A DNA stretch of 60,969 nt. Source: an uncultured Thiohalocapsa sp. GTDB lineage: Bacteria; Pseudomonadota; Gammaproteobacteria; Chromatiales; Chromatiaceae. Numbering within the stretch: the stretch's first letter is position 1; every line of letters begins with the position of its first letter. This document shows, piece after piece, positions 8,452 to 37,293 of the stretch. The stretch covers positions 1 through 60,969 of the forward strand of contig NZ_CAJXYK010000038.1 in assembly GCF_913063425.1 (NCBI RefSeq). The letters are read 5' to 3'. A program made the translations under genes and the position numbers. The notes beneath the pieces were generated by a model, which had not been told where the DNA came from, did no database searches, and saw only the letters and a program-made list of their open reading frames with translations.

Positions 8452-8588
8452 GCCGCTCCCGTGCGTGAACTTGCGTAGTCCGGAGTCAAGGCGCACCCCG
8501 GAAGGACGACTGCCGGAGCCGTTAAGAGTGCGCGAGAATCGGATGACGTGCGGAGCCGAGCACCGGAGCGATTGACGGGAGACTTGCC

Positions 8589-22817: not shown

Positions 22818-24053
22818 TCAGGCGTAGCGCGCCCAAAGTCCGAGAAACCGCTCCGCCGCGAGCTTCCAGTGGACCTGCGCCGGCAGCCCCAGGGCGCTCG
22901 CGGCACAGGGGTCCAGCAGCGAGCCGGCCTCGGTGAGCAACAGCGGCAGGACGGCGATGAGACGCTCGCGGGGATAGCGCAGGGCGCGGCGCGGCCGGCG
23001 CAGCGGCTCACGAGGGCCGAAGTCGCGCAGGGTGACGCCGAGGTTGCGGACCAGGTTGCCGCCCTGGCCCTTGGGCAGGTCGGGGCGACAGTAGTCGTGC
23101 CAGTCCGCAAAGCTGCGGCCCAGCCTGCGGATCTCGAACGCACGCAGGGTGGCGGTCCAGATGCGCAGCACGCGCGCCAGCCAGTCCGACGGGCGCGCGT
23201 GCGCAAACTCCGCATAGGCCGGATGGAACTTGTGCCGATAGGCAAGTCGGTAGAGCTCCAGAAACTCGTCATGCCTGGGCATGGGGTCCGGGCGCTCGTG
23301 CTCGTCCACGTAGACCGCCGGGCGCGGCGCCTGCAGGCGGGCGAGCTTCTCGGGGTAGGAGGGATGGTAGCACCCCGCGGCGGCGAGGCGGGCGTCGCCG
23401 CAGGCGAGCACTGCCTTGAACAGGTACTTGAAGAAGACCTCCCGCTCGCCCGCATCCAGACCACCGCCCACGCCGAGGGAGCGGCGCTCCAGCAGCAGTT
23501 GCTGATCCATGAGCAGCAGGGCGCCGCGGTTCAGCATGAGCCGGGTGAATTCACCCGGAGGCAGGCCGTGGAAGGGCATGTCGCGCATACCCCGCAGCAC
23601 GTCCTGATCCCCCGCCACCACGCGGTGGCCCCAACGCATCTCGGCGTTCATCAGTGAGTATTCGGCGCGCTTCAGCCGCTCGACGCCGAGGAGCGCGAAG
23701 TCCACCTCCACACCCAAGCGCACGGTGAGCGTCTCGGCAAGCTCGCCCAGGGCCGCGTGCAGGGCGGCGCGGGCGCCGCCCGACATGCGGCGGACGACGA
23801 CGAAGTAGTCGTAGTCGTTGAAGGGCGCCGGTCCCTGGTCGGTGACCACATAGCCGCCCTCGCCGCGCCCATAGCCGCCCATGAGCACCAGGGCGACGAG
23901 ATGCGGCGCCGGCACCACGGCGGTGACCGCCGCCGCCACCTCGTGCTGGTCGGCCTCGATGCGTGCCTCCACCTCCGGCCCGCCGTCCAGGGTCCAGCGC
24001 GCAGGCGGGGCGGCGATGGGCTCCGCCGCTGCAACCGGCTCAGCCCTGCCCAT
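22818..24053 (-). CDS. Nucleotidyltransferase-fold protein of the glycan operon
   Basis: A 411-residue protein of no named family. Residues 57-85 carry the pol-beta-type nucleotidyltransferase signature: LMGGYGRGEGG (G59-G60, then R63-G64-E65) followed by NDYDYFVVV with D80 and D82, and a third acidic residue in VEVDFALLG (D118), so three metal-binding carboxylates are present. The rest is helical and charged, without membrane segments. It overlaps the upstream GT2 gene by 14 bases and is the last gene of the glycan operon, so it probably modifies a sugar carrier, the glycan or a partner protein by nucleotidyl transfer. Substrate cannot be read from sequence. Confidence 0.65.
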   Translation of the reverse strand: MGRAEPVAAAEPIAAPPARWTLDGGPEVEARIEADQHEVAAAVTAVVPAPHLVALVLMGGYGRGEGGYVVTDQGPAPFNDYDYFVVVRRMSGGARAALHAALGELAETLTVRLGVEVDFALLGVERLKRAEYSLMNAEMRWGHRVVAGDQDVLRGMRDMPFHGLPPGEFTRLMLNRGALLLMDQQLLLERRSLGVGGGLDAGEREVFFKYLFKAVLACGDARLAAAGCYHPSYPEKLARLQAPRPAVYVDEHERPDPMPRHDEFLELYRLAYRHKFHPAYAEFAHARPSDWLARVLRIWTATLRAFEIRRLGRSFADWHDYCRPDLPKGQGGNLVRNLGVTLRDFGPREPLRRPRRALRYPRERLIAVLPLLLTEAGSLLDPCAASALGLPAQVHWKLAAERFLGLWARYA

Positions 24054-24984
24054 GCGCAGCGCCCCGCTTGCCGTTCACCGCCCGCAGCCCCGCCCGCAGT
24101 CCACGCCAGCGGCCCCACTTCTGGGTCAGCCGCAGCGGGACGCTGTGCAGCGCCGCGTCCAGGGAGCGCTCGCGCACGGCCCAGTCCAGGTCCCGCAGCA
24201 CCTCCATGCCCGCGGGCAGCACCATGTAGCGCAGGAAAGACATGTCCATCTCGCCGTTACGGAAGATCCAGGCCTCGGCCTTGCCCTCGCCGAACTGGCG
24301 CTTGTACGACTGCGCCAGGGTGTAGTTGTGGGAGTGCGTGGCCGCCGCCTCCGGCACGTAGACGATGCGCAGCCCCGCGCGGCGCAGCCGGTAGGACCAT
24401 TCGATGTCTTCGGAGTATTGCACACGCGTCTCGAAGGGGTACTGCTCCAGTACCTCCCGCCGGGCGGCGGCGTTGGCCATGGAGAAGAAGTGCACCCAGT
24501 TTGCGGACTCGCTGCCGTCGCCGAAGGCGCGCTCCGTGTCCTTGCGGAACAGCTCCCGGCAGTCCGGACGCGCGGTCTGCCGGCCGAACACGGCGCCGAC
24601 CTCCGGCGCCGCCAGCGGGGCGATGAGCCGCTCCAGCCAGTCCTCGCGCTCGGGGGTGGCATCGGAGTTGAGAAAGACCACGATGTCCGCGTCGGCGCCC
24701 GCCGTGGCCACGGCGTGGTTCAGCACCCGGCCCGGATTGTAGTCCTTGGGGTCGTTCTGCAGAATGCGCGCCGGGTCGTTGTACTCGCGGATCACCTCCA
24801 GGGTGCCGTCGCTGGAGCTGGAGTCGAAGCTCCAGAGCCTGAAGTTGCGGTAGCCCTGGCGGGCGACCATCTCCAGCGTGCCGCGGATGGTGTCGATGTC
24901 GTTGTAGGAGCGCATGGCGATGGCCACACGCGGTGCATGGCCCGGCTGTCCGCCGGCCCTGACCTGAGCACTGTCCCCGGGCAT
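24040..24984 (-). CDS. Family 2 glycosyltransferase
   Basis: Cytoplasmic GT-A glycosyltransferase of 314 residues, resembling rhamnosyl-type GT2 enzymes. The fold starts at RVAIAMRSYNDIDTIRGTLE. The nucleotide-sugar Asp occurs in SFDSSSSDGT, the metal-binding region in VVFLNSDATPEREDWLE, the acceptor loop in WVHFFSMANAAARREVL, and the catalytic ED in YSEDIEWSYRLRRAG. It has no membrane helices. It lies between the NTase/sugar-transferase fusion gene and the nucleotidyltransferase-fold gene, overlapping the latter, and is expected to add a sugar to the lipid-linked glycan begun by the operon's sugar transferase. Confidence 0.9.
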   Translation of the reverse strand: MPGDSAQVRAGGQPGHAPRVAIAMRSYNDIDTIRGTLEMVARQGYRNFRLWSFDSSSSDGTLEVIREYNDPARILQNDPKDYNPGRVLNHAVATAGADADIVVFLNSDATPEREDWLERLIAPLAAPEVGAVFGRQTARPDCRELFRKDTERAFGDGSESANWVHFFSMANAAARREVLEQYPFETRVQYSEDIEWSYRLRRAGLRIVYVPEAAATHSHNYTLAQSYKRQFGEGKAEAWIFRNGEMDMSFLRYMVLPAGMEVLRDLDWAVRERSLDAALHSVPLRLTQKWGRWRGLRAGLRAVNGKRGAAHGQG

Positions 24985-25056: not shown

Positions 25057-26562
25057 TCAGACGCGCTGCCAGGCCCGGCGGCTGAAGAGGCCGAGCAGGC
25101 CGGTCCAGAGCCAGCGCAGGTCGCCCAGGGCGCTGCGCTTGCCGGCATAGAAGGCGTCGCTCATGAGCCGCTCGTCGAAGGGCGCGTCCGCCGGCAGGTT
25201 CAGCTGGGTCGGCCCGATGAGCCCCACCGGCGCCTGGTCGCGCACCCGCTGCCAGTCCTCGGTGCGCGCCTCCGCCTGCTGCGGCGTCAGGGGTGCGACC
25301 CCCACCGGTCGCAGGTCGCCGCTGATGACGGCCAGGACCCGCGGCAGGGTCGCCAGCACCGGAATGCGGGTTGCGAACCTTCGGGTGACGAAGGCCCGCT
25401 CATTGCCGCCGCCGGCAGCGCCGTTCAGCGCCGGCGCGCGGTTGCCGATGAGGGTCTCCCCACGCAGCAGGCCGCCGCCGGACTCCAGCGCCGCGGCGGC
25501 AAGCGCAATGGGCCAGAGCGGCAGCGACAACAACAGCAGCAGCACGCCCAGCATGCGGTCGGAGAGGCGCGGACCCTCCGGCTGTGCGGCCTCCCCGCCC
25601 AGGCGCCCGAGCAGGAAGGCGTCCGCCACCTTGAGCACCGCACCCGTGTCCACTCGGATCAGCACATCGTGGGCGACGATGGCGTTGCTCACCTCCACCA
25701 GCTCGCCGATGTAGCTGTGCGGCAGGATGACGCTGTCGGCGATGGTGGCGCCCCGGTCCACTACCACGTCCCGGGCGACAACCACCTCGCCCAGCAGCTC
25801 CGCATCGGCGCTGATGCGGCTGTTCTCGCCCACATAGGCCTGGCCCTGCTTGAGGCTGCGGGGGGCCACGGCGGCGCGGCGCCCGGCAGTGAGGCCGAGC
25901 GCCACCTCGCGGCCGGCGGCGGCGAGGCCCGGGAGCCGCCCGGCCACCAGGTCGCGGTTGGCGCGGTGGTAGTCCGGCAGCGTCGCAAGCAGATTCAGGG
26001 GCGTGGCGGTGAGGTCTATGGCGTGGGCTGCACCGGCGGCGTCACCCGCCGCAGGCTGCGGATCCGGGGCGCCGCCCCAGTGCAGCAGATCCAGGAGCGG
26101 GCCCGGGTCCGGATGGCCGGCGCGCAGCAGCAGCAGCGAAGCGCGCGGGTCCGCCGCCTGCCCCACCACCACCGCACCGGGCAGCCCCTGGGCCTGGTCC
26201 AGGAAGGCCGCGATGCAGGGCGCCGCAAGCACGTCCGCGCGCAGCGCCAGCAGCGGCTCGTCGTCGCGCAGGGCGATGCGCGGCCAGACCGCGCTCGGCG
26301 CCTCCGCGCCCCCGCCGCCGGTCCGGCTGAGGGCAAAGCGAAAGCGCCCGCCCCAGCGCTCGCCGGCGCCGAGCAAAGCCTCCAGCTTGTCCGCATGCTC
26401 GCCGAGCACGAAGATGCACTCGGTGATGCCGGCGTCGATGAGCTCCTCCAGCCGGAACTGCACCAGGGGCCGGTCCGCCAGCGGCAGCAGCGCCGGCGCG
26501 TACTGGGCGTCCAGGGGCGCCAGGTCGGCGGCGGGGCGGTCTGCGAGCACGAGTGCGCGCAT
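25057..26562 (-). CDS. NTase-like / left-handed beta-helix / sugar-transferase-like fusion protein
   Basis: A 501-residue three-part protein. Residues 1-210 resemble a sugar-nucleotide pyrophosphorylase (PLADRPLVQFRLEELIDAGI), but the GGxGTRL glycine loop is replaced by LADRPAADLAPL, so catalysis is doubtful. Residues about 230-320 are hexapeptide beta-helix repeats (AYVGENSRISADAELLGEVV..., SVILPHSYIGE). Residues about 330-501 have a membrane helix (MLGVLLLLLSLPLWPIALAA) and a bacterial sugar-transferase-like domain ending GDLRPVGVAPL. The Asp-Glu of the family's DELPQ motif is absent here (LATLPRVLAVISGD, near residue 405). It therefore looks like a scaffold or regulator built from two probably inactive enzyme folds. 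The next gene upstream encodes an intact sugar transferase. Confidence 0.75.
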   Translation of the reverse strand: MRALVLADRPAADLAPLDAQYAPALLPLADRPLVQFRLEELIDAGITECIFVLGEHADKLEALLGAGERWGGRFRFALSRTGGGGAEAPSAVWPRIALRDDEPLLALRADVLAAPCIAAFLDQAQGLPGAVVVGQAADPRASLLLLRAGHPDPGPLLDLLHWGGAPDPQPAAGDAAGAAHAIDLTATPLNLLATLPDYHRANRDLVAGRLPGLAAAGREVALGLTAGRRAAVAPRSLKQGQAYVGENSRISADAELLGEVVVARDVVVDRGATIADSVILPHSYIGELVEVSNAIVAHDVLIRVDTGAVLKVADAFLLGRLGGEAAQPEGPRLSDRMLGVLLLLLSLPLWPIALAAAALESGGGLLRGETLIGNRAPALNGAAGGGNERAFVTRRFATRIPVLATLPRVLAVISGDLRPVGVAPLTPQQAEARTEDWQRVRDQAPVGLIGPTQLNLPADAPFDERLMSDAFYAGKRSALGDLRWLWTGLLGLFSRRAWQRV

Positions 26563-26647
26563 GGCTCAGGCGCTCCCGCCGCTGACGGGTGGGCGCACAG
26601 GCGCGCGGTGGCAAGCGGTGCGTCTCGCCTTGCACATGTCATGGTCC

Positions 26648-27382
26648 TCAGTAGGCGCCGGTGCCGAGCAGGAGCGCCGGCACGGTTTTGAGAAGGATTT
26701 TCAGGTCGGTCCAGAAGGACTGGGACTCGATGTACTGCACGTCGAGCTCCACCTGCTGCTCGAAGGGGATCTCCGAGCGCCCGGAGATCTGCCAGATGCA
26801 GGTGATGCCCGGGATGACTTCCAGGCGCCGGCGGTCGGAGAGGGAATACTCGTCCACCTCCGCGGGCACCGGCGGCCGCGGCCCCACCAGCGACATCTCG
26901 CCGCGGAGCACGTTCCACAGCTGGGGCAGCTCGTCAATGCTGGTCTTGCGGATGAAGCGGCCGACCTTGGTCACCCGCGGATCGTTCTTCATCTTGAAGA
27001 TGACGCCGCCGGCCATCTCGTTCTGCGCCATCAGCGCCGCCTTGCGCGCCTCCGCGTCCACGTACATGGACCGGAACTTCCACATGGTAAACAGCCGCCC
27101 CCAGCGCCCGACGCGCGTCTGCCGGAACAGGATGGGCCCCGGCGACTCCAGCCGGATGGCCAGCACCACCATGGCGAATACCGGCAGCAACAGCACCAGC
27201 AGCACCGCGGAGGCTGCGATGTCGAACAGGCGCTTGACCAGATAGGAGCCGCGCACCACGCCCACCCAGGCGGCGCGCTTGAGCCACATGCGCGTCCGTG
27301 CCCGGGCACCGAGGGCAGCGGGATTGCCGTAGCGCTTGATGAGCGCCGCCTGCCGGCGCCGCTGCTCGCTGGCGGTGCTCAT
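26648..27382 (-). CDS. Initiating sugar (phosphoglycosyl) transferase, WcaJ/EpsE-like
   Basis: Membrane phosphoglycosyl transferase that loads the first sugar phosphate onto undecaprenyl phosphate. The ATG at 27382 gives 244 residues. A re-entrant or transmembrane helix (LFDIAASAVLLVLLLPVFAM) is followed by SPGPILFRQTRVGRWGRLF, the KFRSM box and the catalytic IDELPQLWNVLRGEMSLVGP (Asp-Glu dyad intact), then PGITCIWQISGR. The start overlaps the stop of the preceding gene by ATGA. Of the three sugar-transferase-like proteins in this operon, this is the only one with a complete active site. Confidence 0.92.
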   Translation of the reverse strand: MSTASEQRRRQAALIKRYGNPAALGARARTRMWLKRAAWVGVVRGSYLVKRLFDIAASAVLLVLLLPVFAMVVLAIRLESPGPILFRQTRVGRWGRLFTMWKFRSMYVDAEARKAALMAQNEMAGGVIFKMKNDPRVTKVGRFIRKTSIDELPQLWNVLRGEMSLVGPRPPVPAEVDEYSLSDRRRLEVIPGITCIWQISGRSEIPFEQQVELDVQYIESQSFWTDLKILLKTVPALLLGTGAY

Positions 27383-28787
27383 GGCGCGCCCCCGGGCGCG
27401 GCTTGCGCTGCCGGTGCGGGCCGCGGGGCGGTCGGCAGTTGGGCGGGCAGCGGGAAGCGCTCCGGGCGCTGCATCTGCCACCAGACGCGGTACAGGAACA
27501 GCGGGTTGCCGATGACGTAGCGCCGCCACATGCGCCCCAGCTCCTGAAGCAGCCGGTAGGCCCACTCCAGGCCGATCTCACGCATCCACTCGGGTGCCCG
27601 CGGGATGCGCCCGGAGTAGAAGTCGAACAGGCCGCCGACGCCCATGCGCACCGGCGGTGCGAGAACGTCCCGGTGCTGGTGCAGCCACAGGTCCTGGCGC
27701 GGCGCACCGAAGGCCACCAGCAGGATGTCGGCGCCGCTGGCGTTGATCTGTTCGATGACGGCGGGCTCCTCGGCGGCGTCGAAGTAACCGTCCCGCGTGC
27801 CGGCAATGCGCAGCGCCGGGTAGCGCTGGCGCATGCTCTGCGCCGCCGCCGCGGCGACCCCGGGCCGGGCGCCCAGCAGGAACAGCGAGCGCCCTGCGCC
27901 GCCGCCGCCTCGCACAGCAGGGGGAACAGGTCGGTGCCGTTGACGTTCTCCCGCAGCGCCAGCCCCTGCATGCGGCAGCCGATGTGGATGCCGATGCCGT
28001 CCGGCAGCACACGCGCCGCCGCAAGCAGCGCCGTGCGGTAGTCCGCATGGCGCCAGGCGATGTTGAGGCAGTCCGGGTTGACGAAGGCGACCTGCCGAGG
28101 CGCCCGGTCCGCCGCCCCGCAGGCCGCCATAAGCCAGTCCACCGCCGCCTGCATGCTGGTGTTGAGGATGGGAATGCCGAAGAAGTTGAGCACCGCGGGC
28201 ATCTCCCGGGCGCCGCCGCCGCCCAGCACTCCGCTCACCATGGAGCGGGCGGCGAGACCGAGGTCCCCATGCATCGATTGGCTGTAGACGAAGTCCCGGT
28301 CCAGCCGGCTCTCGCCCACATGGGCGATGCCCACGCTGCGCTTGACGCCGAAGGGGGACACCAGACCCGGGCGCACCGTAAAGCGCACGGCGTCCGCAAC
28401 CGGCACGGCAGCGGCCTCCGCCGCCGTGAGCGGGCGTGGCCCGACGATGGCGAGGTCCCCCTTCAGCACGCTGAGCCACACGGCGAGCCCACGCAGCGGA
28501 CCCCGGCCGGCAAAGCGCAGGCGCTGGATGCGGCTGCGAAAGCGCCCGATGAGCGCCTGCGGCGTGAACAGTCCGCCCGTTTGCGCCAGGCTGGCGGCGG
28601 CGCGCGCCAGGACCAAGGGCGAAAGCACCAGCAGCAGGGCCGACGCAATGGCAATGTCCAGGAGCCGCGGCAGGGCATCCGCAAAGAAGCGCAGCACCGG
28701 CAGCAGCCTGCGCCTGACGGCAAGGCGCCACCGCCCGCGCGTGCGCTTGCCGAGCGGCCCCGGAATCTTGAGCGCTTGTCGTCCCAT
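27379..28787 (-). pseudogene. Sugar-transferase-like / WecG-TagA glycosyltransferase fusion, frameshifted
   Basis: The first gene of the glycan operon. Residues 1-175 have a membrane helix (RLLDIAIASALLLVLSPLVL) and a reduced sugar-transferase domain ending LAIVGPRPLT; its DELPQ motif is replaced by GPLRGLA near residue 97. From FFGIPILNTSMQAAVDWLM onward it is a WecG/TagA/CpsF (GT26) enzyme, with FVNPDCLNIAWR, RVLPDGIGIHIG and NGTDLFPLLCE. At 27892-27894 a run of three G (minus strand) puts the frame out. Adding one G restores GRSLFLLGARPGVA through ILLVAFGAPRQDLWLHQH to the stop at 27379. WecG-type enzymes add N-acetyl-mannosaminuronate or ManNAc to lipid-linked sugar. The frameshift may be sequencing error. 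Confidence 0.8.
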
Positions 28788-29191: not shown

Positions 29192-29944
29192 TCAGCCGCC
29201 GTCGGTGATCGGCGTCAGCAGATCCGCATCGTCATTGCGGGGGCTGTTGACCCGGCGCGAGACCGGGTCCAGCACCCAGGCGCCGGCGGGCGCCGGTCTG
29301 AGCAGGGCCTGCAGGGCATCGGTGTCGGCGTTGTCCGGGTCGAGCCAGGTATCCATGGCGCCCGGGGTATCCGGGTCGAGCACCACGGGCATGCGCTCGT
29401 GCACCGGTGCGATGGCGGCATTGGCATCCGTGACCACGATGGTGCACGAGTGCACCGGATCACCTTCCTGCGGCCGCCAGACCTCCCAGAGCCCCGCGAG
29501 CAGAATGGGCGCGCCGTCCCGGCGGTGGATGAAATAGGGCTGCTTGGGCTTGGACCTATCCTTGCCCACGCCCTTACCGCCGCCCTTGCCTGCATCCTCG
29601 CCGGCGACAGGTGCCTGCCATTCGTAGAAGCCGTCCGCGGGGATCAGGCAGCGCCGGCGCTTGAAGGCGCTGCGATAGGCCGGCTTGGTCGCGACCGACT
29701 CGGCGCGGGCGTTGATCATGCTGTAACGGTTGTCCGGCCCCTGCGACCAGCTCGGAATCAGCCCCCAGCGCAGGGCCGCGAGCTCCCGCCCGCCGTCCTT
29801 GGCCGCACGGATCGCCAGCACCGGCCGGGTGGGCGCAACATTGAAGCTCGGGCGCCAGTCGCCCAAGCCATCCGCCGGCAGCTCCGCGGCGTATCGGCTC
29901 GCGTAGATCTCCGGGTCCGCGTGTTGGACGAAACGACCGCACAT
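29192..29944 (-). CDS. SRAP-family abasic-site protein (YedK/HMCES-like)
   Basis: SOS-response-associated peptidase family: it covalently captures abasic sites in single-stranded DNA. The invariant Cys2 follows the start Met (MCGRFVQ). Other conserved parts are FNVAPTRPVLAIR, LRWGLIPSW, INARAESV, the catalytic Glu in IPADGFYEW and the His in VHERMPVVL. The 250-residue length is slightly above normal because of a Gly/Lys-rich insert after FYEW (about residues 115-135, GKGGGKGVGKDRSK), probably a surface loop that may add DNA affinity. It follows the PEP-CTERM gene on the same strand with 80 bases between. Confidence 0.93.
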   Translation of the reverse strand: MCGRFVQHADPEIYASRYAAELPADGLGDWRPSFNVAPTRPVLAIRAAKDGGRELAALRWGLIPSWSQGPDNRYSMINARAESVATKPAYRSAFKRRRCLIPADGFYEWQAPVAGEDAGKGGGKGVGKDRSKPKQPYFIHRRDGAPILLAGLWEVWRPQEGDPVHSCTIVVTDANAAIAPVHERMPVVLDPDTPGAMDTWLDPDNADTDALQALLRPAPAGAWVLDPVSRRVNSPRNDDADLLTPITDGG

Positions 29945-30024: not shown

Positions 30025-30795
30025 TTAGGCAGCCCCCCGCCGTCGCCGCTGAACACCGATGGCAGCAATGCCGATGCCGAGAAGCGCGACCGTGGCCGGC
30101 GCAGGGACGGTGGGCCCAGCGGTAGCCGACGCGAAGCCGTCTGCGTCGATCAGGCCGGTGATGAAGTTCTGCCCGCCCGCGGCCAGATCGAAGGAAAAGG
30201 TCCCCGTGCCGCCGTCGCTGTCGCTGAGGGGGCCGAAGAGTAGGCCTGCGCTTGCTTCGAGCACGAAATCAACAAAGCCCTCGTCGTCGAGGATGTCCAC
30301 GAGCGCGAAGGCAGAGGCATCGTCCCCATCGGCGAGGGAACCGGTGACCCCAGCAGCCACCGCGAAATCGTAGGCGAAGTTGAAGTTCAGAACGTCAGGG
30401 GAGAGGTTCTCGACGAATAAGCTGAAATCCGTCCAGGAGAGGGACTCGGCGCTGCCGAGCGTGGCGTTCCCGAAGGCCCTGGACGACTGGACCACGGTGT
30501 CGTCGACGCCCAGCAACAACGGCGGATCGACGACGACGTTGTCGAAGTCGGCGTTGGCCGATCCTGTGGTGAAGGCGCCCTCGTCGAAGGTCGAGCCGGA
30601 GGCCCCGACCAAGAAGTCGTCGGGGCTCGCAGCGCCGTCGCTGCCGACCACCGAGAGGAGCGTCAGACTGATGCTGGCTTCCGCCTCATAGGTGGCGAAG
30701 GCGCTTGCCGCCGGCGTAAACGCTGTACCCAATATGAGGGTCGCCGCGAGCGCCGCTGAACGCGCGCAAGAAGATTTCGTTTGCCTACCGTACAT
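30025..30795 (-). CDS. PEP-CTERM sorting-domain protein
   Basis: A secreted protein of 256 residues. The ATG at 30795 is chosen because it begins a signal peptide (basic MYGRQTKSSCAR, hydrophobic ALAATLILGTAF, then PAASAFA); the frame is open further upstream without homology. The mature part is acidic, rich in Asp, Gly and Ser, and predicted beta-rich. The C-terminus is a PEP-CTERM tag variant: VPAPATVALLGIGIAAIG followed by RRRR, i.e. motif, membrane helix and basic tail, as processed by exosortase. No exosortase gene is in the window; a PrsT-like gene is 7.5 kb away. Its role is probably extracellular matrix or surface, but no specific function can be assigned. Confidence 0.82.
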   Translation of the reverse strand: MYGRQTKSSCARSAALAATLILGTAFTPAASAFATYEAEASISLTLLSVVGSDGAASPDDFLVGASGSTFDEGAFTTGSANADFDNVVVDPPLLLGVDDTVVQSSRAFGNATLGSAESLSWTDFSLFVENLSPDVLNFNFAYDFAVAAGVTGSLADGDDASAFALVDILDDEGFVDFVLEASAGLLFGPLSDSDGGTGTFSFDLAAGGQNFITGLIDADGFASATAGPTVPAPATVALLGIGIAAIGVQRRRRGAA

Positions 30796-31608
30796 GTCAT
30801 TCACCCTGGTGGTCAGACGTTTGCGGGATGTACATTTGCACGACGAGACGGCACCCAGCGCCAATGGACATTGCGGCCGTTGCAGGCCCGCATTCATGCC
30901 CATCATTGATAACCGCGGTGTCCGATCAGTCGGTCAGCCTGCCAAAAATCTCTCTCCGACGTTTTCACTGCGTTCCCGGGTGAAGCCGAAAACACAGGGG
31001 CTGCATCGCATACGCCCGCGATTAAATCTCTGCTGGCGAGCATGCAACAGCTCCAATCAGCAATGGCAGCGTGCGAGACGATACAAATCGAACACGCTCT
31101 GCGAAAGCATCCGGGAGCCCGAAGCCTGTGGAGGCGCAAAAAAGTCCGACGAACGGCCAATGTATAGGTCTTTTGACTGAGCTTGGAATACAGTGATTCC
31201 CTGAGCCTTATATCCAGCTTTCTGCAGAAAAAGCGTTTTTGGTCGGCAGCCCGTGTCCGGGTCAGGTTTCACGCGCCAGCGCCTTGCAGCCTCATTGCGC
31301 ATCGACGCAATGCTGTGTCATTCGCAATCGCGGGGGCCTCAGCGCACTGACATTGGGACGACGGTGCACGGGGCGCTGGACCATCGTGCAAGGCGTACCG
31401 ACCAAGAGCACACCATGGACCACGTGGATGATCTCAGCGCTGCCGATGCCGCAGCTCCCGGCGCCGAGCTGGCGCTACGCGGGTTGGGTACTCCGCCGGC
31501 GGCAGCCTCAGGCCATCGAAGGTTGCTGCGCCTTGACGCCCGCCACGCGCCTGCGATGATGGCGGGCTCCGCCACCGCGCCTTTGCACGCCCTTTCCTGA
31601 CGCCCGCC
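30796..31608. other. Gene-free region between PEP-CTERM gene and uvrA
   Basis: About 810 bases, clearly more A/T-rich around 30940-31240 than the surroundings, consistent with divergent promoters for the PEP-CTERM gene (minus) and uvrA (plus). I found no supported ORF, no LexA-type CTGT-N8-ACAG box that I could confirm, and no convincing sigma54 (GG-N10-GC) site upstream of the PEP-CTERM gene. Confidence 0.45.
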
Positions 31609-34600
31609 ATGCCCGACCCCGCCGACCGCATCCGCCTGCGCGGGGTGCGGCAGAACAACCTGAAGCACCTGGACCTGGACCTGCCGCTCGGCGAGCTCAT
31701 CGTCGTCACCGGTGTCTCGGGCTCCGGCAAGTCGTCGCTGGCCTTCGACACCGTCTATGCCGAGGGCCAGCGGCGCTATGTCGAGACCTTCTCGCCCTAT
31801 GCCCGGCAGTTCCTTGACCGGATGGACCGCCCGCAGGCGGACCGCATCGACGGCATCCCCCCGGCCATCGCCATCGACCAGACCAATCCCGTGCGCACCT
31901 CACGCAGCACCGTCGGCACCATGACGGAGCTGAACGACCATCTGAAGCTGCTCTTCGCCCGCGCCGCCCGGCTGTTCTGCCGTGGCTGCGGCCGCGAGGT
32001 GCGCCGGGATACGCCCGAGAGCATCTGGGGCGCCCTGCGCCACCGCACGGGGCAGGACCGGGCGGATGCCGGTGAGCGGCCGGAGCCCCTGCGCGCACTC
32101 ATCTGCTTCGACGTGCCGGTGCCGGAGTCCATGACCGCGGCGCAGGTGAAGGAGCTGCTGGGCCAACAGGGCTACATCCGGTTCCTCGCCGAGTCCGATG
32201 CGCGGCTTGAGGTGATCCAGGACCGGCTCAAGCTGGACGCGGACAACCAAAGCCGTGCCGTGGAGGCACTCGCCGCAGCGCTGGAGCACGGCCGCGGTCG
32301 GCTCCGGGTCTATCCGCTGGACGCGGAGCGCAATCCGGGCGAGCCCTGGCGCTTCTCCTCTGACCTGCACTGTCCGGACTGCGACATCCATTACCGGGAC
32401 CTGCAGCCGGCGCTGTTCTCGTTCAACTCGCCGCTCGGGGCCTGCGACAGCTGCCGCGGCTTCGGCCGGGTCATCGGCATCGACTGGTCGCTGGTGGTGC
32501 CGGATGCGTCCAAAAGCCTGCTGGACGGGGCCATCAAGCCCATCCAGTCGGACAGCTACTCGGAGGTGCAGGAGGACCTGATGGCCTTCGCCCATCGCCG
32601 CGGCGTGCCCACGGACGTGCCCTGGCGGGATCTCTCGGAGGCCGATCGCGAGTGGGTACTGGAGGGCGAGGGCGAGTGGGAGGAGCGGGTGTGGTACGGC
32701 ATCCGCCGCTTCTTCGACTGGCTGGAGGGCCGCGCCTACAAGATGCACGTGCGGGTGCTGCTGTCGCGCTACCGCAGCTACGACAGCTGCCCCGCCTGCG
32801 CCGGCGCCCGGCTCAAGGACGCGGCGCTCGACTTCCGCGTCGGCGACCATGGCCTGGCGGACACCGCCCTGCCCCGGGGGGAGCGCTTCCGCCACCAGCG
32901 CATCGCCATGCCGGATCTCGCCTGGCTCGGCCTGCCGGGGCTCAACCTGCACGACCTCATGCGCCTGCCCATCGCCCGCTGCCGGGCCTTCTTCGACGAC
33001 CTGGCACTGCCCGGGGCCATGGACCAGGCGATGGAGCTGCTGCTCGCGAACATCCGCTCGCGGCTCAGGTATCTCACCGAGGTGGGACTCGGCTACCTGA
33101 CCCTGGACCGCCAGTCCCGCACCCTCTCCGGCGGCGAGGTGCAGCGCATCAATCTCACCACGGCGCTGGGCACCTCGCTGGTGAATACGCTGTTCGTGCT
33201 GGACGAGCCGAGCATCGGCCTGCATCCGCGGGACATGGACCGGGTGGTGGGCATCCTCGAGCGTCTGCGCGACCAGGGCAACACGCTGCTGGTGGTGGAG
33301 CACGACCCGCAGGTGATGCTCGCGGCGGACCGGATTCTGGACATCGGCCCGGGCCCCGGCGAGCGCGGCGGCGAGTTGGTGTTCCAGGGGCCGCCGGCGG
33401 CGCTGCTGCAGGCGCCTGGGTCCCTCACCGGCGCCTACCTGGCCGGGCGCCGCCGGGTGGAGCCGCCGCGGGAGCCGAGACCACCCGCGGCGGATGAGCC
33501 CGCCATCGGCATCCGCAACGCCCGCGAGCACAACCTGCGCGGCGTCGACCTCGAGATTCCGCTCGGCCGGCTGGTGGTGGTGACGGGCGTCTCCGGCTCC
33601 GGCAAGTCGACGCTGGTGCAGGAGGTCCTGTTTCACCACCTCGCCAAGGCCAAGGGGCATCCGGAGGGTGCGCTCGGCGACTGCGATGCGGTCACCGGCG
33701 CCGACCTTGTGCGCGACGTACTGATGCTGGACCAATCCCCCATCGGCCGCTCATCGCGCTCCAACCCGGCGAGCTTCGTCGGCGCGCTGGACCCCATCCG
33801 CAAGCTGTTCGCCGCAACGCCTCTGGCCAGGGAGCGGGGCTGGAAGGCGGGGCACTTCAGCTTCAATTCGGGCACCGGGCGTTGCCCCACCTGTGCAGGC
33901 TCGGGCTTCGAGCACGTGGAGATGCAGTTCCTCTCCGACGTCTATCTGCGCTGCCCGGACTGCAACGGGCGGCGCTACAAAAGCGCGGTGCTCGACGTGC
34001 GCCTGGACGGGCTCGCGCAGCCCGGCGCCGGGCATGCGCCGGAGCAGCGCCCGAAGCAGCACCCGGAACAGCATCAGCAGCCGAGCGGGGCCGGGCTCAA
34101 CATCGCCGAGGTGCTGGAGCTGACGGTGGCCGATGCCCTGAGCGCGTTCGCCGCGCATGCGGACGTCACCCGCGCGCTCAAGCCGCTGGCCGATGTGGGC
34201 CTGGACTATCTGCGCCTGGGGCAGCCGGTGCCGACGCTGTCCGGCGGCGAGGCACAGCGCCTGAAGCTCGCCGGGCACCTGGCCAAGTCGCTCGGGAAGC
34301 GCCGTGGGGCGGGGCTCCTGTTGTTGCTGGACGAGCCCACCACGGGTCTGCATTTCGATGACATTGCGACCCTGCTCCGGGCCTTCCGCCGCCTCATCGA
34401 CGCCGGCCACTCCCTGGTGGTGATCGAGCACAATCTGGACCTGATCCGCGCCGCGGACTGGCTCGTCGACCTGGGCCCCGAGGGCGGCGACGGCGGCGGG
34501 AACATCGTCTGCACCGGAACACCTGTGGATGTCGCCCGGCATGAGACAAGCCACACGGGCAAGGCGCTGCGGGCACTGGGAACGAGTATCGAGGCGCGCG

Positions 34601-37293
34601 GTGCGAGGGCTGCGCGGCGGGTCGCTGACAGCGCCGGGCACTACATCGCGGAGGAAACCGTGGTGGCCGCGCCCCTTGAGCTTCGCCCCTCGAAACCCGA
34701 CCACCAAAACGCGATCCTCATCAAGCATGCCCGCGAGCACAACCTGAAGGATCTGACCCTGTCCATCGAGCGCGAGCGCTTCGTGGTGGTCACCGGCGTC
34801 TCCGGCAGCGGCAAAAGCACACTCGCCTTCGACATCCTGTTTGCAGAGGGCCAGCGGCGCTATCTGGAGTCGCTGAACGCCTATGCGCGGCAGTTCGTGC
34901 AGCCGGCGGCGCGGGCCGATGTGGACGCCATCTTCGGCATCCCGCCCACCATCGCCATCGAGCAGCGCACCAGCCGCGGCGGGCGCAAGAGTACCGTCGG
35001 CACCCTCACGGAAATCCATCACTTCCTGCGGCTGCTCTACGTGAAGCTCGGCGTGCAGCACTGCCCGGACTGTAACCTGCCCATCGCCGCACAGCCCCGC
35101 ACGGCCATCCTGGAGCGCCTGCGCTCGGACTTCGCCGGCCGCAGCGTGACCCTGCTGGCACCGCTGGTGATCGCCCGCAAGGGCCTCTACAACGATCTCG
35201 CCGCCTGGGCGGCCCGCCAGGGCCATCCGCTCTTGTGGGTGGACGGGGAGCCCATGCCCACGCAGCCCTGGCCGAAGCTGGACCGGTTTCGCGAGCACGA
35301 CATCGACCTGCCCGTGGGCGATGTGGAGCCGGGCAGCGCACCCACCGAGACCCTGGCGGCCCTGCTGGACCAGGCGCTGGATGCCGGCAAGGGCCTGGTG
35401 CGGGTGCTGCCGGCGGGCGCGGCCACGGCCGCCGCCACCTATTCCACCAGCCGCACCTGCCCGGGCTGCGGGCGCGGCTTCGAGGAGCCGGACCCGCGGC
35501 TCTTCTCCTACAACTCCAAGCACGGCTGGTGTCCGAGCTGCTTCGGCACCGGCGTCGAGCTCGCCGGCTTCGACGCGGAACAGAGCGGCGAAGAAGGCCA
35601 GTGGCTGGAGGGCGACGACGGCGGCGCCGAGGTCTGCACCGCCTGCGACGGCGCCCGGCTCAAGGCCGAGGCTTTGGCGGTGCGCTTCAAGGGTCAGAGC
35701 ATCGCCGAGCTGTCGGCGCTCACCGTGGCGGCGGCGGCGGACCTGCTGGGCGCTCTGACGCTGGATGCCCGGGAGGCGGCCATCGGTGCCGACGTCATCG
35801 CGGAGGTGCGCTCTCGGCTCGGCTTTCTGGCCCAGGTGGGCCTTGCGTATCTCAGCCTGGACCGGGCGGCGCCGACGCTCTCCGGCGGCGAGGCCCAGCG
35901 CATCCGCCTTGCCGCCCAGCTGGGCTCGAATCTGCGCGGTGTCTGCTATGTGCTGGACGAGCCGAGCATCGGCCTGCATCAGCGCGACAACGCCCGCCTC
36001 ATCGACACCCTGGCGGGCCTGCGCGCGCGTGGCAACAGCGTCATTGTGGTGGAGCACGACGAGGACACCATGCGCGCCGCCGATGAGATCATCGACCTGG
36101 GCCCCGGCGCCGGGCGCAACGGCGGCGCCGTGGTGGCCCGCGGCAGCGCAGCGGAGCTGGCGGCGGCCCCGGCTTCGCTCACCGGGCGCTTCCTGAGTCG
36201 CCCTCCCCAGCCGCCCGCACAGCCGCCCCGCCCCTGCCGGCCGGACGCCGCCGACCGGCTCCGGCTCCAGGGCGCGGCGCGGCACAACCTCCGGCACCTG
36301 GACGTCGCCCTACCCCTGGCGCGGCTGGTGTGTGTCACCGGTGTGTCGGGCTCCGGCAAGTCGACCCTGGTGCGCGATGTGCTTGCACCCTCCCTGCGGG
36401 GACTGCTGGCGGCGGAGCGCCCGGGCCCGCGTGGGCGCCGGCATGTGCTTCAGGGCTGCCGCTCGGTCACCGGCTGGCAGGCCCTGAGCCGGGTGCTGGA
36501 GGTGGACCAGACACCCATCGGCAAAACCCCGCGCTCCTGCCCCGCCACCTACATCGGTTTTTGGGACGCCATCCGCCGGCTGTTCGCGGCGACGCCCGAG
36601 GCGCGCATGCTGGGCTGGGGGCCTGGGCGCTTCTCCTTCAACACCAAGGGCGGGCGCTGCGACGCCTGCGACGGCCAGGGCGTGCAGCGCATGGAGATGA
36701 GCTTCCTGCCGGACGTGAAGGTTCCGTGCGAGGTCTGCCACGGCAGCCGCTTCAACGCCGAGACCCGGGGCATCCGCTACCGCGACCACAGTATCGGCGA
36801 GGTGCTCGGCCTCAGCATCGACGCGGCGACGGAGCTGTTCGCCGCCCATCCTGCTGTGCGCCGGCCGCTGGAGCTGTTGCAGGCCGTGGGCTTAGGCTAC
36901 CTGACCCTGGGCCAGGCAAGCCCGACCCTGTCCGGCGGTGAAGCGCAGCGCATCAAGCTGGTGGCGGAGCTGGCGAAGGCGCGCAGCGACGCCGAAGGCC
37001 GCGCCGCGCGGCCCACGCTCTATGTGCTCGACGAGCCGAGCGTGGGGCTGCACATGGCCGACGTGGAGCGGCTCATCGTGGTGCTGCAGCGGCTGGTGGA
37101 CGCCGGCCACTCGGTGGTGGTGATCGAGCACGACCTGGACCTGATCGCCGCCGCCGACTGGGTCATCGATCTCGGGCCAGAAGGAGGCGCCGGCGGCGGT
37201 ACCCTGGTGGCAGCGGGGCCGCCAGCCGCAATTGCAGCCGCGGGCACGGGCCACACCGCCCTGGCGCTGCGCCGGAAGCTCGGCCTCGGCTGA
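31609..37293 (+). CDS. uvrA: Double-length UvrA (tandem-fused excinuclease ABC subunit A)
   Basis: A 1894-residue protein made of two UvrA-like halves (about 1-1010 and 1030-1894). It has four Walker A loops of the form [10 protein letters not shown] (near residues 35, 659, 1062 and 1578), four LDEPS/T-GLH Walker B/D-loop motifs and four LSGGE signatures. Zinc-finger Cys pairs occur repeatedly: CRGCG, CPDCD, CDSCRG, CPACAG, CPTCAG, CPDCNG in the first half and CPDCN, CPGCG, CPSCFG, CTACDG, CDACDG, CEVCHG in the second. Ordinary UvrA is about 940 residues and works as a dimer in nucleotide excision repair; here the dimer is covalent. Such fused forms are known in some Proteobacteria. A normal uvrA elsewhere would make this a paralogue. 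No uvrB or uvrC nearby. Confidence 0.93.

Follow-up and report, generated by a model that had tools for sequence, protein, structure and literature searches.

In a window of 60,969 nucleotides from an uncultured Thiohalocapsa sp. (the whole stretch of DNA analysed; contig NZ_CAJXYK010000038.1 of assembly GCF_913063425.1), three consecutive genes, here referred to as W, P and N, each encode a domain of the monotopic phosphoglycosyl transferase (PGT) superfamily, and of these domains that of P alone carries the catalytic Asp-Glu dyad. The family of P transfers a sugar-1-phosphate to undecaprenyl phosphate. W joins its PGT-like domain to a glycosyltransferase of the WecG/TagA/CpsF type (glycosyltransferase family 26, GT26) and N joins its own to a degenerate sugar-nucleotidyltransferase fold, and we refer to the PGT-like domains of both as pseudo-PGTs. 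We consider it probable (roughly 0.6) that W-P-N constitutes a conserved starter module for a polyprenyl-linked surface polysaccharide, in which the pseudo-PGTs of W and N serve as non-catalytic membrane or docking modules that assemble on P. The host genome measures 5.9 Mb, and the closest named relatives of the N protein are from Thiohalocapsa (Chromatiaceae, purple sulfur bacteria).

All three domains scored above the 27-bit Pfam cut-off for PF02397 (Table 1), with the alignment of P running over profile positions 1-178, that of W over positions 95-174 only and that of N over positions 88-174 only. Together with a helix break seen in the predicted models, these significant matches support PGT homology of W and N in terms of fold rather than activity. 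The dyad of P lies within IDELPQ (D150-E151 in the window) and was found in all 24 P rows aligned (the window P and 23 others), so that the middle gene is indeed canonical, as a preliminary description of this DNA had proposed. Profile-profile alignment by hhalign placed the Arg-Gly of W (in GPLRGLA, probability 98.9) and the Ala-Thr of N (in LATLPRV, probability 87.9) opposite this Asp-Glu pair. Both motifs thus stand where the preliminary description had put them, and the GD...VG...PL stretch that it had seen in both proteins is kept as well.

This loss extended to the relatives of both genes and, set against the Asp-Glu of all 24 P rows, exceeds what chance would give. The dyad Asp was present in none of the 20 stand-alone W rows (Arg in 18, Lys in one and Ala in one) and in none of the 27 N rows (Arg in 20, Ala in five, all of which are Thiohalocapsa, and Ser in two), and the Glu position was never Glu in N (0/27). 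No Asp-Glu dipeptide occurs anywhere in the pseudo-domain of the window W. That of the window N contains one (FDER, residues 463-464), which aligned with P residues 208-209, some 58 residues past the dyad, and which only 5 of 21 N rows share at the corresponding position. Its distance from the dyad in the alignment and its lack of conservation show that this stray pair is no relocated dyad, and no displaced pair able to replace the dyad was found in W or N.

Besides the dyad, the pseudo-domains have lost the whole catalytic segment of about 40 residues by deletion, since the stretch between the R104 and R145 columns counted 42 residues in P-type domains (21/21), two in W (18/18) and three in N (21/21). 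With residue columns matched to PglC in this analysis, and PglC numbered as in PMC12802240, the K59-equivalent Lys was found in 21/21 P, 0/18 W and 0/21 N rows, and the R88-equivalent column was a gap in 18/18 W rows. As W and N have neither the nucleophile Asp nor the K59-equivalent Lys nor the segment of about 40 residues, and N no Glu either, their PGT-like domains are most likely unable to transfer sugar-1-phosphate. Alignment and conservation, with the fold and selection data given here, thereby support the view that the active initiating transferase of this locus is paired with two relatives that are non-catalytic, the inactivity itself being what we infer from them.

What the pseudo-domains retained lies mostly on the membrane side. 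The Pro of the re-entrant helix was invariant in both (18/18 W, 21/21 N), and PMC6133551 describes this Pro in PglC as helping to set the topology and as implicated in polyprenol binding. The Arg and Asp of the same helix were kept in 17/18 W rows (one row starts later), and this Asp in only 12/21 N rows. The GPRP Arg occurred in 18/18 W and 2/21 N rows, and the Asp of the C-terminal helix in 12/18 W and 15/21 N rows. The GD, GPRP (in W) and PG motifs were also conserved. By these columns, the pseudo-domains have kept their membrane half and lost their nucleotide half, more so in N.

The partner domains could be assigned as follows. The GT26 assignment of the WecG part of W is supported by a PF03808 match, a TagA fold and a catalytic Asp, as predicted from sequence and model. 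The single 617-aa open reading frame (ORF; 26934-28787) that had earlier been taken for one WecG fusion protein does not correspond to one protein, as comparison of the frames with the homologue at related locus L033 revealed a frameshift near 27.89 kb (27880-27900), beyond which WecG continues in another frame (ORF 27379-28731). Because the pseudo-PGT domain lies wholly before this point, the dyad observation is unaffected. W was in one frame in 6/6 related loci compared that have the gene, and the frameshift in the window is either an assembly error or a strain-specific break. W also changes frame, at 8469, in locus L050 (Thiocapsa sp. KS1), there at the boundary between pseudo-PGT and WecG (one high-scoring segment pair stops at residue 190 and the next starts at 191).

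The fold matches of the N model (8x7s, ADP-glucose pyrophosphorylase, eIF2B and GMPPA/B) concerned its nucleotidyltransferase part, and its pseudo-PGT part resembled PglC and WbaP by profile. An Arg in the GxGTR loop and the Lys of a PK motif are signatures of active sugar-1-phosphate nucleotidyltransferases. At the former position N carried Glu in 21/27 rows and Arg in none, and at the latter Val in 17/27 rows and Lys in none, indicating that the nucleotidyltransferase domain of N has, by its sequence, lost its active-site signature too. P, in turn, matched only positions 253-445 of the 445-position EPS_sugtrans model, which form its C-terminal catalytic part, and the N-terminal part of large PGTs of the WbaP/WcaJ type is absent from P.

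A scan of genome contigs for the N family yielded 26 loci in Chromatiaceae, Competibacteraceae, two methanotrophs (Methylolobus and Methylotetracoccus) and one unplaced proteobacterium. The order W, P, N was kept in 21 of these (counting L050 with its split W, and L058, where W is cut by the contig end) and not in the remaining five, so that the trio is conserved among relatives. In the window the start codon of P overlaps the stop codon of W by 4 bp (ATGA), and the same overlap was found in 16/21 loci (L038, with a P fragment, included). Among 210 genomes of the window's family, N-type domains were detected in 27 (E <= 1e-12; those of genomes G502 and G605 being divergent) and W-type domains in 26 (E <= 1e-18, a cut-off chosen because a search at E 1e-12 also caught active PGTs). 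Both were present in 24 genomes, with W upstream of N on the same strand and within a span of 3.0-3.8 kb in all 24, the presence of P between them having been checked in a subset. When 114 genomes sampled from the class were searched with PF02397 at E <= 1e-4, six matches fell below 50 bits. Four of these, namely W and N in the genome of the window and W and N in G674, were open throughout and covered the C-terminal half of the profile alone; in G674 a second trio was confirmed. Of the other two, one was a fragment of a disrupted gene (G672) and one had an internal stop (G055). One more match to the C-terminal half, of 85 bits (G044), came from a gene listed in two parts, of which it was the latter. 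Across the phylum samples, W and N domains were found only in the genome of the window (1/398 each, at E 1e-18 and 1e-15, respectively, among the best <= 8 candidates per genome), which gives a rough indication of rarity.

Natural fusions link these domains further. In genomes G567 and G568, WecG shares a single chain of 690-704 aa with a pseudo-PGT and an active-type PGT (Pfam finds PF02397 twice and PF03808 once), and an N-like protein with no PF02397 match lies next to it. By the Rosetta-stone argument, this fusion indicates that W and P work together. In G502 and G605, WecG is joined directly to an active-type PGT and lacks a preceding pseudo-PGT, and the N pseudo-PGT is divergent (Pfam was run on G502 only). 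Since the direct fusion replaces the pseudo-PGT here, it suggests that the job of the pseudo-PGT is to bring WecG to the PGT. By eye, a flippase-like membrane protein and a sulfotransferase-like protein follow the WecG-PGT fusion and N at loci L066 (9299-12029) and L067 (9628-12266), neighbours that suggest a Wzx-type, perhaps sulfated, polysaccharide cluster.

Pairwise ratios of nonsynonymous to synonymous substitution rates (dN/dS) were 0.05-0.28 for the pseudo-domains (13 pairs of N and 12 of W), compared to 0.015-0.15 for P, 0.09-0.23 for the nucleotidyltransferase part with its left-handed beta-helix (LbH) and 0.11-0.25 for WecG. The pseudo-domains are therefore maintained by purifying selection, under less constraint than P. 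In a tree of 62 rows, W (support 100/99), N (100/100) and, weakly, P (87/35) each formed one group. W and P clustered together to the exclusion of two further PGTs from their genome (99/96), and N lay on a long branch of unsure placement. An origin of W and N by recent tandem copying of P was considered and rejected, as the tree puts the three in separate groups. Distances among the domains correlated at 0.75-0.94, a figure that still includes their shared phylogeny and is thus no evidence of contact.

In the arrangement that we favor, P would start a lipid-linked sugar chain by transferring sugar-1-phosphate to undecaprenyl phosphate, and the pseudo-PGT of W would dock on P at the membrane, holding its GT26 domain next to P, so that the undecaprenyl pyrophosphate (Und-PP)-sugar could be handed straight from P to the GT26 domain of W for the second transfer. 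The pseudo-PGT of N would bring in the degenerate nucleotidyltransferase/LbH domain, which may bind a nucleotide sugar or sugar phosphate and tune P. The earlier suggestion that the non-catalytic relatives act as partners or scaffolds gains indirect support from the gene order, the 4-bp overlap, the fusions and the absence of the pseudo-PGT in the two genomes where WecG and PGT are directly fused. The pseudo-PGTs would then bind P and may have a part in specificity. As P has no dimerising N-terminal part of the WbaP type, the pseudo-PGTs may supply its oligomeric partners. We tentatively extend this to a heteromeric PGT, possible though on balance doubtful, in which a stripped-down active PGT has two dedicated pseudo-PGT partners, W for the hand-off to GT26 and N for the sensing of nucleotide sugar by its pseudo-nucleotidyltransferase, which would gate initiation.

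Several observations weigh against a docking module assembled on P. L039 and L048 have P and N with no pseudo-PGT-WecG adjoining. L056 (10001-11458) and L057 (10001-11461), both Competibacteraceae, have N alone, their best genomic PGT match being 147 bits versus 454-475 for P, and L038 (5389-5544; genome G576) has W and N intact with only a C-terminal fragment of P, its best PGT elsewhere reaching 143 bits versus the same 454-475. N, and once W, thus persist without P, L038 being either a pseudo-PGT module without its cognate active PGT or an assembly error of the metagenome-assembled genome (MAG). The N rows of L056 and L057 depart from more near-invariant columns than any others do (8 and 11 of 113, with 7, 6 and 6 in the next rows), which is a weak sign of relaxed constraint after loss of P, as the two are close kin and other rows come near. 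Four of the ten genomes of the window's genus lacked both W and N at the thresholds used, and the pseudo-domains evolve faster than P. At the residue level, the Glu position keeps an acidic residue in 8/20 W rows (Glu in four, Asp in four), both fused pseudo-PGTs have Asp-Pro at the dyad and so keep the Asp, as if in an intermediate state, and 6/21 N rows have Arg in the R88 column, which borders the deletion in an uncertain part of the alignment. The W model is of low confidence at the end of the pseudo-PGT (residues 151-195), and no PGT rows were listed among the fold matches of the N model, all of which were taken by its nucleotidyltransferase part. Because the latter matches filled that list, the PGT fold of N rests on its profile matches (PglC and WbaP) and a similar order of helices and strands, and the missing rows say nothing against it.

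Part of this evidence would fit pseudo-PGTs that are mere membrane anchors, whose re-entrant helix keeps the WecG and nucleotidyltransferase-like domains at the inner membrane with no specific contact to P. Such anchors would explain why the helix Arg, Asp and Pro of W and the Pro of N were kept while catalytic residues were lost, and why N, and once W, occurs without P, and PMC6493773 reports that TagA activity requires membrane association. However, conservation reaches well past the helix (GD, GPRP in W, PG), the two pseudo-domains lie together in 24/24 family genomes that have both, a pseudo-PGT is found fused to an active PGT through WecG, and GT26 enzymes like TagA have a membrane-binding tail of their own according to that same source, so that we regard bare anchoring as unlikely. 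Improbable, in our estimate, is that the domains retain some chemistry or ligand function distinct from that of PGTs, such as the binding of Und-PP-sugar with the Arg in place of Asp in a new role. That Arg (18/20 W, 20/27 N) does look selected, and W keeps its GPRP Arg and helix Pro throughout (18/18 each). Five N rows nevertheless have Ala at this position and two have Ser, the two fused forms carry Asp, and the absence of the nucleotide-side segment makes a reaction with a nucleotide sugar unlikely.

That the domains are functionless, decaying relics of an ancestral gene duplication would agree with their faster protein evolution and with the loss of parts of the trio at some loci. We hold this to be very improbable, given that dN/dS was far under 1 in every tested pair, that invariant columns run across families, that segment length is constant within each type and that each type forms one group in the tree. 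Scarcely credible, finally, is a dyad lost only through misalignment, frameshift or annotation: the window W is indeed frameshifted and a DE dipeptide does occur elsewhere in the window N, yet the pseudo-PGT ends before the frameshift, 20/20 W and 27/27 N rows concur, and the stray DE is neither conserved nor near the dyad.

Each part of the trio belongs to a known family or fold. With the monotopic PGTs (PglC, WbaP, WcaJ, EpsZ), W, P and N have PF02397, the GD motif and the Pro of the re-entrant helix in common, W the GPRP motif as well, and P shares their Asp-Glu dyad, whereas W and N are without the dyad Asp and the segment of about 40 residues. WbaP is described in PMC10942596 as dimerising through its N-terminal part, the part that P lacks. 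Unlike other WecG/TagA/CpsF proteins, W has an N-terminal pseudo-PGT fusion; in TagA, it is a C-terminal appendage that serves membrane association (PMC6493773). Residues 1-321 of N have the two-domain fold of GMPPA and the gamma and epsilon subunits of eIF2B with the active-site signature lost, and N differs from these in its C-terminal pseudo-PGT and in having no active nucleotidyltransferase partner within the trio. GMPPA is presented in PMC11228364 as a non-catalytic regulator that senses nucleotide sugar for its active paralogue GMPPB, and by analogy the N domain may sense a nucleotide sugar. The Myxococcus pair EpsW-EpsZ likewise places a partner protein on an initiating PGT, EpsW being, according to PMC12802240, an accessory protein that interacts with EpsZ and regulates it; there the partner is a response regulator, and here the partners are pseudo-PGT fusions.

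In the limited set of literature searched, we found no description of paired pseudo-PGTs around an active PGT, and an earlier mention of such fusions is possible. O'Toole et al. (2021) reportedly presented a similarity network of PGTs and PGT fusions. Two open questions are what governs the commitment of scarce undecaprenyl phosphate and nucleotide sugars to a single polysaccharide, and in what way the initiating transferase passes the lipid-linked sugar on to the transferase that acts second. In this trio, the initiating enzyme has apparently dead copies, one joined to the enzyme of the next step and the other to a domain resembling a sensor, with covalent fusions as evolutionary alternatives. 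Hand-off and regulation thereby become directly testable, and pseudoenzyme biology would be extended to the monotopic PGT superfamily. Our data suggest that, in some purple sulfur bacteria and their relatives, such copies attach regulatory proteins, or proteins acting at a later step, to the active enzyme.

Table 1. Features of the W-P-N locus and of the genes that follow it, with positions in the window.
Feature	Position	Strand	Basis
W: pseudo-PGT domain (about residues 30-190) and WecG/TagA/CpsF (GT26)	27379..28787	-	PF02397 43.8 bits; PF03808 in two pieces
P: active-type small monotopic PGT, 244 aa	26648..27382	-	PF02397 239.7 bits
N, 501 aa: degenerate sugar-nucleotidyltransferase fold and LbH (residues 1-321), pseudo-PGT (322-501)	25057..26562	-	PF00483, Hexapep, PF02397 32.8 bits
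GPLRGLA, W at the dyad position (Arg-Gly for Asp-Glu)	28482..28502	-	profile alignment
IDELPQ, catalytic motif of P (D150-E151)	26921..26938	-	sequence and alignment
LATLPRV, N at the dyad position (Ala-Thr for Asp-Glu)	25336..25356	-	profile alignment
GT2 glycosyltransferase, after the trio	24040..24984	-	PF00535
411-aa protein, family unassigned, after GT2	22818..24053	-	neighbourhood

On the minus strand, the genes are thus transcribed in the order W, P, N, GT2 and 411-aa protein (Table 1). The last two genes also lay 3′ of the trio in 9 of the 26 related loci (Thiohalocapsa, Lamprocystis, Thiodictyon and one Chromatiaceae MAG). For the 411-aa protein, no PDB relative at E 1 and no NCBIfam match at E 0.1 were found, and its one Pfam match fell below the cut-off; its stretch GGYGRGEG...DYDYF recalls what we take to be a minimal nucleotidyltransferase motif. 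Upstream of the trio lie a SRAP gene (29192-29944) and then a gene for a PEP-CTERM motif protein (30025-30906). Further on, a UvrA-like ORF of 1894 aa (31609-37293) appears by eye to consist of two tandem UvrA proteins in a single chain.

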